From Symmachiella dynata (GTDB taxonomy: Bacteria; Planctomycetota; Planctomycetia; Planctomycetales; Planctomycetaceae): 64,000 nucleotides of DNA. The translations under genes were made by a program, and so were the position numbers. A model generated the notes under the pieces. It was not told the DNA's origin. It made no database searches and saw only the letters and a program-made list of their open reading frames with translations. The DNA lies in contig NZ_CP036276.1 in the NCBI RefSeq assembly GCF_007747995.1, forward strand, positions 6,004,001 to 6,068,000. The letters run 5' to 3'. This document shows positions 3,218 through 47,972 of the stretch, piece after piece. Numbering within the stretch: the first letter of the stretch is position 1; each line of letters opens with the position of its first letter.

Positions 3218-3248
3218 GCGCGGCTCAGCGGGAGCTTCGCCCTCCCGG
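3218..3248. repeat. Single copy of dispersed GC-rich repeat
   Basis: The 31 bases match, with about two mismatches, the inner arm of the nested palindrome at 46079-46110 and, inverted, 45995-46023. Here it is a single copy, 46 bp after the DUF1501 stop codon and before the pectate lyase gene. Confidence 0.7.
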
Positions 3249-12029: not shown

Positions 12030-12101
12030 GCGGGCGTAGCTCAGTGGTAGAGCGTTAGCTTCCCAAGCTAAATGTCGAGGGTTCGATCCCCTTCGCCCGC
12101 T
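12030..12101 (+). tRNA. tRNA-Gly (anticodon CCC)
   Basis: A complete cloverleaf: acceptor stem GCGGGCG/CGCCCGC, D-arm GCTCAGTGGTAGAGC, anticodon stem TTAGC/GCTAA with loop TTCCCAA (anticodon CCC at 12062-12064), and T-arm GAGGGTTCGATCCCC. The discriminator base is T and no CCA is encoded. The 3' end is followed within three bases by the left arm of a large palindrome. Confidence 0.95.
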
Positions 12102-12103
12102 CT

Positions 12104-12347
12104 GCGGCTCAGCCACTTGGTGCGAGCTGCCGCTCGGAGGGGGCGATTGCCGCTCCCGTTGGTCGCTTGCATGGAGAGTGTAAGGCGTTGGGCAACGCTG
12201 CTTTACTCTGGATGGGCATTGGGCAAATGCTACCCTTTACGCGACTCCGCAAAAACCATCGCCCACCCGACCACCCCCCGTAGCGACCAACGGGAGCGGC
12301 CTCCCCCACCTCGAGCGGAAGCTCGAACCAAGCGGCCACGCCGCCGC
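12104..12347. repeat. Large imperfect palindrome at converging gene ends
   Basis: Left arm 12104-12167 and right arm 12282-12347 are imperfect reverse complements, sharing GCTCCCGTTGGTCGCT and a CTTGG..CGAGC..CCGCTCG core. The left arm starts 3 bp after the tRNA and the right arm ends at the stop codon (12348-12350) of the leftward DUF1501 gene. The centre holds smaller hairpins (GGCGTTGGGCAACGC). The same arms recur at 45904-46197. A terminator or REP-like role is inferred from position. Confidence 0.85.
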
Positions 12348-44807: not shown

Positions 44808-45902
44808 ATGGTGCGGAAACCGATCATCGGCGGCGACAATGACGATCAACATGACGTTCATGAGAATCAACTTAGCGAAGACAACAGCGGTGGGTTAGGG
44901 ACCCCGTTGTTTGACGAGGACGGCCTGGACGACCTTCGGCCTCAACGGCTGGCAGACGTCGTGGGGCAGCAGGCTGTCGTCGAACGGTTGCAGATCATGC
45001 TGAACGCTGCCCGCAAACGGGATGAGCCGCTCAGTCACCTGTTGCTGGACGGCCCTCCCGGCTTGGGTAAAACCACCTTCGCGACCGTGCTCCCCCGCGA
45101 ACTGGGCACGGAATGTCAAATCACCTCCGGGCCATCGCTCAGCGCCCCGAAAGACCTGTTGCCGTATCTGACCAATGCGAGTCACGGTTCGGTGCTCTTC
45201 ATCGATGAAATCCACCGCATGCCTCCGTCGGTCGAAGAATTTATCTATCCGGCGATGGAAGATTTTCGCGTGGACATCACTCTGGGCGAAGGGCTCAATG
45301 CGCGGACGATTAACATGAAGCTCAAACGCTTCACCCTGATCGGTGCCACCACACGGAGCGGCATGCTGACAGCGCCGCTGCGAGATCGTTTCATCAATCG
45401 TGAACACCTTGAGTTTTATACGGTCGAGGAACTGACGGAAATCGTCACCCGCAATGCGAAAAAGCTAAACGTCGAAATCACGCACGATGCTGCAATCGAG
45501 ATCGCTCGCCGCAGCCGGGGGACACCTCGCAACTCGAATAGCTTCCTCCGCTGGACACGGGATTTCGCCGATAGCGAAGCGGACGGCCGCATCTCCACCG
45601 AAGTAGCTGTCGAGGCTCTTAAAAAACGGGAAATCGATGTAACGGGTCTGGATCGCCAAGACCGCCGCTACCTGGAAACGCTGATCCGCGTCTTCGACGG
45701 CGGACCAGCCGGTGTGGCAGCGCTGGGACATAGCATGAACATCCCCCCCGATACGCTGGAAGATGAAATCGAACCGTTTCTGTTACGGAGCGGATTCATC
45801 AAACGTACCCCCCGCGGCCGGATGATCTCCCTATCCGCCTTCCAACACCTCGGCCTCGCCACCCCCGCAGACGACGGCACAGGACAAGCCAAACCATTCT
45901 AA
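44808..45902 (+). CDS. ruvB: Holliday junction helicase RuvB
   Basis: A 364-residue AAA+ motor of branch migration. Walker A is [12 protein letters not shown], Walker B is [10 protein letters not shown], sensor 1 is LIGATTRSG, the arginine finger lies in APLRDRFIN, and sensor 2 is the [11 protein letters not shown] region; the winged-helix end is [10 protein letters not shown]. The stretch after sensor 2 ([13 protein letters not shown]) differs from the usual IANRLLRRVRDFA. A 30-residue acidic extension precedes the core. The stop codon at 45900-45902 abuts a large palindrome. ruvA and ruvC lie apart from it. Confidence 0.95.
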
Positions 45903-45903
45903 T

Positions 45904-46197
45904 GCGGCGGCACAGCCGCTTGGTGTGAGCTTCCGCTCAATTTGTATAGGCCGCTCCCGTTGGTCGCTGCGCGTTGAGAGGTGGTGAGGTGTTTCCGGGA
46001 GGGCGAAGCTCCTGCTGAGCCGCATCGTTGCGTTGGGCGTGATGCGGGAATCATTGAACAATTGACAGGTTACGGTAGCGCGCGGCTCGGCGGGAGCCTC
46101 GCCCTCCCGGGAATGCTGTATTCCCAAATCCCAGCGACCAACGGGAGCGACAATCGCCCCTCGAGCGGAAGCTCGCACCAAGCGGCTGTGCCGCCGC
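45904..46197. repeat. Large nested palindrome at converging gene ends
   Basis: Outer arms 45904-45969 and 46133-46197 are close reverse complements of the same type as those at 12104-12347. Inner arms 45995-46023 and 46079-46110 form a second palindrome of about 29 bp, of which 3218-3248 is another copy. The element begins one base after the ruvB stop and ends inside the stop codon of the Hsp70 gene. Confidence 0.85.
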
Positions 46198-47972
46198 TAG
46201 TTGGCGCGGACGTTGAATTCTAGTTTCCAGCGTCCGTCGTTGGTGGTGCTGACGCCCCACAGTTCGAACATTCCAAGCTCGGTGATTTTGGCGTGAAATT
46301 TGACGGGCACGTAGCCTTCGTCGGTCTCGGCGGATGCTGGTAATGTGGCTTCCAGTGGATCGGTTTCGGTGATTTCGTCGGTCGTCCAAGAGGCAATCAC
46401 GCTGCCTGGTTGGTCGTCGCGGCGCGTGGCGGAGCTGAAGAAGCGAAATTGCGCGGGCTGGCCGACGACCAAACCGATTTCGGCGGAAGGCACGTCGACT
46501 TCGGTGCCTTCTTCCATTCCCAGGGCAGCGACGCACAGTGCGCGTAAGGGACGGGGGACGCCGGGAATCGCCGGGCCGGAGGTCTCAATCCCGACGTAAT
46601 ACGCATGCGACGTCCCGCCGCGAATGCGAATGCCGCGGCCTTGTTTGGCGCGGGCATAGTAGGCAGCACCGCGCGCTACGGCGTAATCGAGATCGTGTTC
46701 ACCGTCGAGCAGCTTCGGCTTCACCTCGGACCAACCGGCGATGGTTTGTTGTAGGCGTTTGCGCAGCTCAGCCGCTTTGAAGACACCGCCGTTGAACAAC
46801 AGCCGTGTCGGCTGTACTGCTTCCCCGTCGCCCTGCGCGCTGAGGAATGCCGCCAAGTGCCGCGTTACTGCTGTGTCTGCTTCGAAAGGTAAACCGATTT
46901 CTTGAAATCCGGAGGTCGCCGCCGCTTGCGGTTTTTCTGTGATGTCGCACTTGGGGAAAAAACCGTCCAGTAGCAGCGACGCTGATTTTTTGCAGTCCAT
47001 GTCGATGGAGACGGTGCCGCCAATCAACTTACTGCCGCGCCCCAGCACAGTGACCGGATGCGTGTCGGGGCCCTCGGCGGCGAAGATTGTTTCTTTGGCG
47101 TTGCGACAGGCGTGCCATAAAGAGACGGACTGCCAAGCGTCGAGTTGGGTTCCTTTTTTTGCGAACTGGGCAGCCGCCTGATGCGCCAAGGCGAGGTCCA
47201 TGTTGTCGCCCCCCACCAACAGGTGATTGCCAACCGCGCGGCGCTCTAAGGTTAGCTCACCCTCCTCTTCGTTGACTTCAATTAACGTAAAGTCAGTCGT
47301 ACCACCACCGACATCGCACACCAATAGTATGTCGCCGACCGACAACTCTTTACGCCATGCATCACCGGCAGCGGCCAGATAGGCGTAGAGTGCCGCCTGT
47401 GGTTCCTCGAGCAGCACAAAGTCTTCGGGCAAACCGGCGGCCAAGGCTGCTTCGCGGGTCAAATCCCGCGCGCTGGCATCGAATGAGGCAGGTACCGTGA
47501 GTACGACGTGCTGCTGGGCTAAAGGGGCGTCGGGATGGGCGGTGTCCCAGGCGGCGACGAGATGGGCCAAGTATTGCTGTGCGGCGGAGACGGGCGAGAC
47601 CTTGGGAATGTCCTCCCCCGCACCCCACGGCAGGATGGGTTCGTGACGATCCACGCGATTATGGCAAAGCCAAGATTTCGCCGAGACGACGGTCCGCGTG
47701 GGGAGGTCGGCTGCCTGTTTGTGGGCCAATTCGCCAGTCGTTACGGCTGGGTGGTCCTCCCAGGGAAGTGCGAATGCTTTTCCGGATTTTTCCGTTTCGG
47801 TGGGGATGTAGAGAAACGATGGCAACGCTTTTTTGGCGTCCACGGTTCCGGCCGCCACGAGTTGCGGGATCGGTAGCAACTGGATCTCCGCATCCTCGCT
47901 ATCCAGTGAGGAATAGGCCAATACGCTGTTCGTGGTACCCAGGTCGATGCCAACGGCAAATTCAGTCGTCAT
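46197..47972 (-). CDS. Hsp70/DnaK-type ATPase, divergent
   Basis: A 591-residue chaperone-like ATPase. The actin-fold motifs are GIDLGTTNSVLAYSS, LTVPASFDASARD, CDVGGGTTDFTLIE, and the late LFNGGVFKAAELRKRL. The N-terminal ATPase is preserved but the C-terminal substrate part is short and unlike DnaK (RFFSSATRRDDQPG, ELWGVSTTNDGRWKLEF), as in the divergent Hsp70 subgroup of planctomycetes. In many genomes this form is followed by a second, larger Hsp70-like gene; none is seen here. Stop codon touches the large palindrome. Confidence 0.88.
   Translation of the reverse strand: MTTEFAVGIDLGTTNSVLAYSSLDSEDAEIQLLPIPQLVAAGTVDAKKALPSFLYIPTETEKSGKAFALPWEDHPAVTTGELAHKQAADLPTRTVVSAKSWLCHNRVDRHEPILPWGAGEDIPKVSPVSAAQQYLAHLVAAWDTAHPDAPLAQQHVVLTVPASFDASARDLTREAALAAGLPEDFVLLEEPQAALYAYLAAAGDAWRKELSVGDILLVCDVGGGTTDFTLIEVNEEEGELTLERRAVGNHLLVGGDNMDLALAHQAAAQFAKKGTQLDAWQSVSLWHACRNAKETIFAAEGPDTHPVTVLGRGSKLIGGTVSIDMDCKKSASLLLDGFFPKCDITEKPQAAATSGFQEIGLPFEADTAVTRHLAAFLSAQGDGEAVQPTRLLFNGGVFKAAELRKRLQQTIAGWSEVKPKLLDGEHDLDYAVARGAAYYARAKQGRGIRIRGGTSHAYYVGIETSGPAIPGVPRPLRALCVAALGMEEGTEVDVPSAEIGLVVGQPAQFRFFSSATRRDDQPGSVIASWTTDEITETDPLEATLPASAETDEGYVPVKFHAKITELGMFELWGVSTTNDGRWKLEFNVRAN

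Follow-up and report, generated by a model that had tools for sequence, protein, structure and literature searches.

The DNA stretch analyzed here (the window) comprises 64,000 nt of the genome of Symmachiella dynata (G000:C1:6004001-6068000, where G000 denotes the source genome, a single contig of 7.77 Mb). Its sister species and a congener are referred to as G001 and G002, respectively, and the individual genomic stretches that were compared carry L numbers. Within the window, the gap between two convergent genes, ruvB (Pfam RuvB_N and RuvB_C) and an Hsp70-family gene (Pfam HSP70), is filled by a near-continuous inverted repeat of 294 nt (45904-46197).

The composite locus between ruvB and the Hsp70-family gene

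A repeat search resolved the 294-nt sequence into three stacked inverted-repeat blocks: (i) 45904-45938/46163-46197 (35 nt, 97% identity), (ii) 45952-45979/46122-46149 (28 nt, 86%), and (iii) 45992-46023/46082-46113 (32 nt, 88%). The RNA fold of the composite was calculated at -212.5 kcal/mol, vs. -126.3 ± 5.1 kcal/mol for 200 shuffled sequences (z -16.9), which rules out a chance origin. These blocks and this fold bear out the original prediction of a two-layer palindrome between the two genes, whose inner part had been placed correctly to within 3 nt of block (iii). Its borders were also as predicted: the ruvB stop codon ends at 45902 and the repeat begins one base beyond it, at 45904, while its last base (46197) falls inside the Hsp70 stop codon (46197-46199, minus strand). 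The predicted outer palindrome is present, but its two blocks proved to be parts of one 64-nt unit, named A. Iterated profile models placed A at 45907-45970 and A' at 46132-46194 and gave the order A - 24 nt - B - 57 nt - B' - 21 nt - A', in which A (outer) and B (inner) are, as anticipated, two distinct nested repeat families, each also found without the other. A single further copy of the inner unit had been predicted elsewhere in the window and corresponds to the B arm at 3220-3248. A known RNA family could be rejected for the composite, since Rfam recognized tRNA alone in the window and the best match at the locus (E 0.73) was to an unrelated family. The features of the window discussed below are as follows:

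3220-3248, minus strand: single B arm (profile model)
12030-12102, plus strand: tRNA-Gly(CCC), followed by an A unit
12104-12167, plus strand: A unit directly after tRNA-Gly
12280-12344, minus strand: A' unit past the stop codon of the facing gene, with a weak B remnant (p 0.007) beyond it
44808-45902, plus strand: ruvB, ending just 5' of the composite
45904-45970, plus strand: left A unit, sense for ruvB, composed of hairpin 1, hairpin 2 and core CCGCTCCCGTTGGTCGCT
45971-45994, plus strand: A-to-B spacer, 24 nt
45995-46024, plus strand: B arm (REP), GAAGC variant
46025-46081: REPIN loop
46082-46110, minus strand: B' arm (REP), GAGGC variant
46111-46131, minus strand: B'-to-A' spacer
46132-46197, minus strand: right A' unit, sense for Hsp70, its final base inside the Hsp70 stop codon
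46197-47972, minus strand: Hsp70-family gene

Unit A: structure, conservation and position at gene ends

Unit A (64 nt) consists of two covarying hairpins and a conserved 18-nt core. Covariation was assessed in 57 of the 72 arms of both sister genomes, after removal of same-letter repeats and three truncated tandem copies. In this set 92.7% of the hairpin cells are paired, vs. 25-43% in slid controls, and the 23 double-change cells were matched in none of 500 shuffles; as related sequences may exceed shuffles without any structure, the slid control carries more weight. When 24 orthologous arms of G000 and G001 were compared, nucleotide sequence identity was highest in hairpin 2 (99.1%), followed by the core (91.9%), hairpin 1 (88.8%) and the nucleotides separating these parts (80.3%) (the tandem copies L061, L068 and L078, as well as L086, L063, the left window arm and the 8368/8651 pair of L057, were excluded). 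Outside A, identity is 72.9% over the 20 nt that follow and 76.1% over the remainder up to +250, and the 5' flank reaches 91.9%; hairpin 2 is thus more conserved than even the upstream flank. Judging by these comparisons, A, and above all hairpin 2, seems to be kept by selection. Part of this conservation could result from gene conversion, against which speaks that partner arms are no more alike than arms elsewhere (partner-arm similarity ranks 5-19 of 24); a search for intra-locus homogenization of A arms gave no sign of it.

The hairpins of A are followed by no U-tract (the 11 nt past hairpin 2 are 48% G and 27% T in 25 arms), and this composition is not that of an intrinsic terminator, i.e., a GC hairpin with a U run. 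The core could pair with B (CTCCCG/CGGGAG), through bases that hardly vary. Tandem duplications of the first ~26-38 nt of A were observed at L061, L068, L078, L391 and at the ruvB-Hsp70 locus of G001 (L127), apparently resulting from slippage in the hairpin part. Another repeat, similar to CTCCCTCTCCCTCTGGGAGAGGG, directly follows A at L071, L076 and L066.

The A and B matches in G000 form 87 clusters, and the 60 stretches examined cover all but 15 single-B clusters. Together with the window, these stretches contain 36 A arms and 84 B arms recognized by profile models, ten A matches with E above 0.1 having been left out of the counts. In a plain open-frame test that treated tandem A copies as separate arms, 16 of the 36 A arms begin close to the stop (-3 to +12 nt) of a sense frame with 100 or more codons, and 20 fail this strict criterion; among B arms located away from A it is satisfied by 5 of 63 (Fisher p 5e-5 vs. 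A). With a wider range (frame end from 70 nt before to 16 nt inside A) the contrast is weaker (23/36 A arms vs. 26/63 B arms), so it is the close stop distance that sets A apart from B. A frame facing the other side of A lies within the wider range in 6 of the 36 arms. According to a home-made gene finder, the nearest upstream predicted gene reads towards A in 29 of the 36 arms and away from it in 7. The stop-to-A distance varies among arms, and none of the 18 stops near A is TGA, vs. 84 of 266 predicted genes (p 0.002). At L391 (G000:C1:2459230), which is included in the 28 A loci considered below and not in the 36 arms, the first copy of a tandem A shares one base with the TAG stop that closes an 824-codon frame.

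The A core (18-mer, at most one mismatch) was found in 41 of 170 genomes of the family, representing 19 of 58 genera, in up to 46 copies, and 18 of the 170 genomes contain it in three or more copies; the reversed core pattern gave one match each in 16 of the 170 genomes, so single core matches are unreliable. In other genomes the core often follows a hairpin CGAGC-N4-GCTCG (11 copies, one of them imperfect), and 6 of these 11 lie within 60 nt of the end of a frame of at least 100 codons, as read by eye from a table. No B was called in 20 A-core loci of other genomes. That A might be the REP of another RAYT was considered and rejected: of 29 listed RAYT loci, derived from four A-rich relatives plus G000 and G001, only two lie near A, namely L373 (the L022 locus) and L389 (about 1.2 kb away), and neither is bracketed by it.

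Unit B, its pairs and the associated RAYT subfamily

The pattern of the inner unit has 91 matches in the G000 genome (up to 3 mismatches) and none when reversed. B without A is the rule, both in G000 and in the loci examined from other genomes. The G000 stretches and the window contain 24 B pairs, 20 of them with 55-65 nt between the arms. Pair 11-20 of the B hairpin, flanked by conserved GA/GA and GGC/GCC, covaries: among 137 arms examined here it is A-T in 83, G-C in 49 and other in 5, and among 121 arms elsewhere G-C in 89, A-T in 27 and other in 5, the search pattern having allowed A/G and C/T independently at the two positions. The two arms of one pair typically differ here (GAAGC vs. GAGGC type), so each arm keeps its own hairpin. 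Many copies have GCGTC immediately 5', as seen by eye, and B is a candidate for the CGTC-tagged REP super-family (CGTC beside an 8-9 bp stem, CCA-type tail). Between G000 and G001, B arms are 96.5% identical over 22 orthologous arms, a value counting only arms recognized in both species.

An open reading frame of G002 (L166 1642-2196, minus strand, 184 aa) matches the model NF047646 (REP-associated tyrosine transposase) with 81 bits (cut-off 80) and Pfam Y1_Tnp with an E value of only 0.004, and this RAYT gene is bracketed by B and B'. Its product was used to search the 170 genomes of the family, and 11 of the best loci, together with its own, were scanned for B. Within this RAYT subfamily, found in the congener and in related genera, B arms occupy both sides of the gene in 8 of 12 loci (six clear, and L253 and L254 weak) and are not found in 4. 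On account of this flanking position B is assigned as a REP, and the B-B' pair, which passes the sequence-based tests for one, is a REPIN. Among the RAYT loci of the family, the 30 listed with the best scores have no B within the flanks examined. Among the eight Y1_Tnp loci of G000, only L022 has an A-B unit, located upstream and not bracketing. The best matches to the B-associated subfamily reach only E 2e-5 in G000 and E 8e-7 in G001, and by this measure the cognate RAYT appears to be absent from both genomes. With the entire 294-nt composite as query, matches were obtained in 89 of the 170 genomes, and among the matches listed mostly through B.

In G002, the B pairs (L158-L165 and L167) have a loop of 16-23 nt vs. 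about 57 nt elsewhere, so the length of the REPIN loop has changed within the genus. At L022 (1340-2060), a RAYT that has inverted repeats of its own, of the GGCCCCGAAAGA type, lies directly downstream of the A-B unit, and the sequence past A-B differs in the matching stretch of G001 (L134). Some B-B' pairs of G000 are enclosed in another palindrome, with ends like AGAACGTGTTTTCAA/TTTGAAAACACGCTCT (L080 2050-2245, L089 and L095), and the outer palindromes around B are therefore of at least two kinds. When up to 4 substitutions are allowed, a loose criterion, such ends flank 13 of the 44 B pairs of the two genomes on one or both sides.

Arrangement and history of the A-B composites

The full order A-B-B'-A' is found at the window locus, L057 and L072, the second B arm of L072 being degenerate (gap of 100 nt, remnant). 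Half forms (A-B and A-B-B') and single A or B units are commoner. Of the 24 A-to-B junctions in G000 and G001, 22 have a gap of 17-20 nt, the exceptions being 24 nt at the left arm of the window locus and 49 nt beside a duplicated A in G001. Assembly of the two layers independently of each other, with no shared gain, was not observed, and the A-B junction is near-constant in length. Of the 40 A arms of both genomes without a called B, 33 have no B remnant at p < 0.01 and 7 have one. Where one A is present, an opposed partner either scores strongly (z > 8) or is without trace (z ≤ 2.6), and a search for decayed second A arms at A-B-B' loci found none. The REPIN lies beside A in either orientation, with its GAAGC or its GAGGC arm next to A, which fits independent landings and also a four-armed ancestor that has lost one A. 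By estimate rather than calculation, convergent genes have opposed A pairs far more often than expected by chance for about 36 gene ends, so there is some dependence between the two arms.

In G001 the composite occupies the same place (89% identity over a 2-kb alignment), and one of its A units is extended by a tandem addition of 26 nt. As it is present in both sister genomes, this locus offers neither an empty site nor a target duplication. A ruvB gene beside this Hsp70 gene was not found in the other 28 of 30 loci (flanks of up to 1.5 kb) or in 64 named loci (up to 3 kb), most of which come from Pirellulales, Planctomycetaceae or Pirellulaceae. All 28 A loci of G000 have A at the matching place in G001, although in 22 cases an A match was the reason for selecting the G001 stretch; the remaining six (L060, L063, L066, L075, L086 and the window locus) were matched by position or by the Hsp70 protein. 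G001 also has an A at L124, where none was called in the G000 stretch L213.

Unit B is common to both species at L081, L083, L084, L085, L087, L090 and L106. It is present in G000 with none called in G001 at L089, L091, L092, L095 and L096, and present in G001 (L141, L143, L149 and L153) with none called in G000; the unmatched loci were chosen because a first comparison had left them so, and these numbers are not rates. At L056, L058, L061 and L064, B arms are missing in one species while A stays. Several of the differences look like deletions with scars: opposite L092 and L143, the other species retains a B scar, the kind of trace that deletion of a palindrome should leave. The clean case concerns a larger element containing B-B' (L080), absent from G001 (L204), with TTAG single there and double in G000. 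At L072 (2539-2819) and its counterpart L139 (2375-2655), the two species have the interior of the composite in opposite orientations (0.89 inverted vs. 0.64 direct) with the outer A arms kept, so A and A' can act as inverted repeats.

We consider it somewhat more probable than not that the locus is a gene-end composite, in which each convergent gene has an A unit of its own at its 3' end and a REPIN lies between them at a near-fixed distance. A sense-oriented A, i.e., two small hairpins and the 18-nt core, follows the stop codon of each gene and would work in the transcript as a 3'-end structure, blocking 3' exonucleases and/or read-through, or acting on the terminating ribosome. By analogy, it may resemble a 3'-UTR stem-loop serving as exonuclease barrier, termination aid or ribosome brake. 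The REPIN would be a relic or a passenger that landed beside A. The outer palindrome then arises because each of the convergent genes carries its own A, and the concentric symmetry would follow from two genes facing each other combined with the intrinsic symmetry of the REPIN. A is not taken for a transposon end because opposed arms are either strong or traceless, because the two arms of a locus are not each other's nearest relatives and because A by itself occurs widely. A more specific and rather doubtful proposal makes A a hitherto undescribed structured RNA element of 3' ends in Pirellulaceae, which purifying selection maintains and which REPINs use for docking, RAYT insertion being steered to ~18 nt beyond it; the constant junction, the occurrence of the REPIN beside A in both orientations and the concentric palindromes between convergent genes would thereby be accounted for.

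A doubtful alternative is that A-B-B'-A' is one palindromic, MITE-like element with A arms as its ends, inserted whole at a shared stop and duplicating CTAR. Neither spacer varies much among the complete copies (window, L057 and L072), paired arms seem to be in excess by the estimate given above, and the lack of TGA among A-adjacent stops (0/18 vs. 84/266; p 0.002) would suit such a target. The flanks of the window copy, CTAA on the left and CTAG on the right, only suggest a duplication; also in favor is a different B-carrying element that has a clean empty site and a TTAG duplication (L080 vs. L204). An element of this kind is hard to reconcile with the lack of any trace of a second A at A-B-B' loci, with arms that resemble their partner no more than they do the arms of other loci (ranks 5-19 of 24), and with the varying stop-to-A distance; in other genera, moreover, A occurs with no B called nearby, and TGA stops precede it at some loci (by eye).

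The original prediction had also suggested insertion of one element into the loop of another. This is partly supported, as the layers are nested and also occur apart; A, however, is a unit present once per gene end and not a palindromic element with a loop. Insertion of a REPIN into the loop of a pre-existing A-A' palindrome is, in our view, unlikely. REP dimers inside palindromes have been described (PMC3733652), the presence of B differs between G000 and G001, and A-A' without a called B does exist (window 12104-12344, and L126 in G001), but the arm ending at 12344 has a B remnant (p 0.007) and this copy may once have held B. The empty form that this insertion predicts, A-A' with a gap of ~40 nt, is absent among the loci examined, and the REPIN lies at the same distance from single A units as well. 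Selection of the whole composite as one large bidirectional terminator or cruciform is very improbable: the fold is very stable (z -16.9), the composite is kept in the sister species, B arms are 96.5% identical between the species and the inverted interior at L072/L139 points to an interaction of the arms, as inverted repeats, at the DNA level, yet many A loci have neither a second A nor B, B arms are lost in one species while A stays (L056, L058, L061 and L064), and the spacer and loop region diverges strongly (72.9 and 76.1% identity).

As in the REPIN/REP and RAYT systems (Bertels and Rainey, 2011, PMC3116915; Nunvar, 2010, PMC2817692), B is a short imperfect palindrome whose inverted pair forms a hairpin, it brackets a RAYT gene and single copies are also present; unlike in those accounts, the REPIN lies at a fixed distance from an unrelated gene-end unit, and no member of the cognate RAYT subfamily was found in the host genome. 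Bacterial interspersed mosaic elements (BIMEs; PMC2817692) are likewise composites of inverted REPs and other sequence located between genes, but they consist of repeated REP units, whereas the added motif A is gene-oriented, conserved and also found alone. Nested REP dimers are already published (PMC3733652): in GTAG-15 of A. variabilis and CGTC-1 of H. neapolitanus a REP pair is likewise nested concentrically in an outer palindrome, which there is not found without the REP, whereas A is common alone and not itself a palindrome. REPs prefer convergent and unidirectional gene neighborhoods, according to that paper (PMC3733652). In E. coli, REPs located up to 15 nt from a stop codon stall ribosomes, as reported in PMC12306157; A similarly forms a stable hairpin immediately past the stop codon, but it is not a REP, is built of two hairpins in tandem plus a core, and is found once behind a tRNA gene.

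Our literature search returned no REPs described for Pirellula, no palindromic interspersed repeats for Planctomycetes and no occurrence of the B sequence; two papers mention REPINs and RAYTs together with planctomycetes. As far as this search reaches, what appears to be new is unit A itself, the fact that it is conserved at gene ends and the fixed distance at which it is coupled to a REPIN. REPs and REPINs are usually studied in gamma-proteobacteria, and here a REP pair of Planctomycetota is physically coupled to a conserved gene-end unit. If A steers REPIN insertion, the question of how REPINs choose their sites becomes testable. If A ends or protects transcripts, it would represent a 3'-end signal for a phylum whose terminators are, to our knowledge, poorly characterized.
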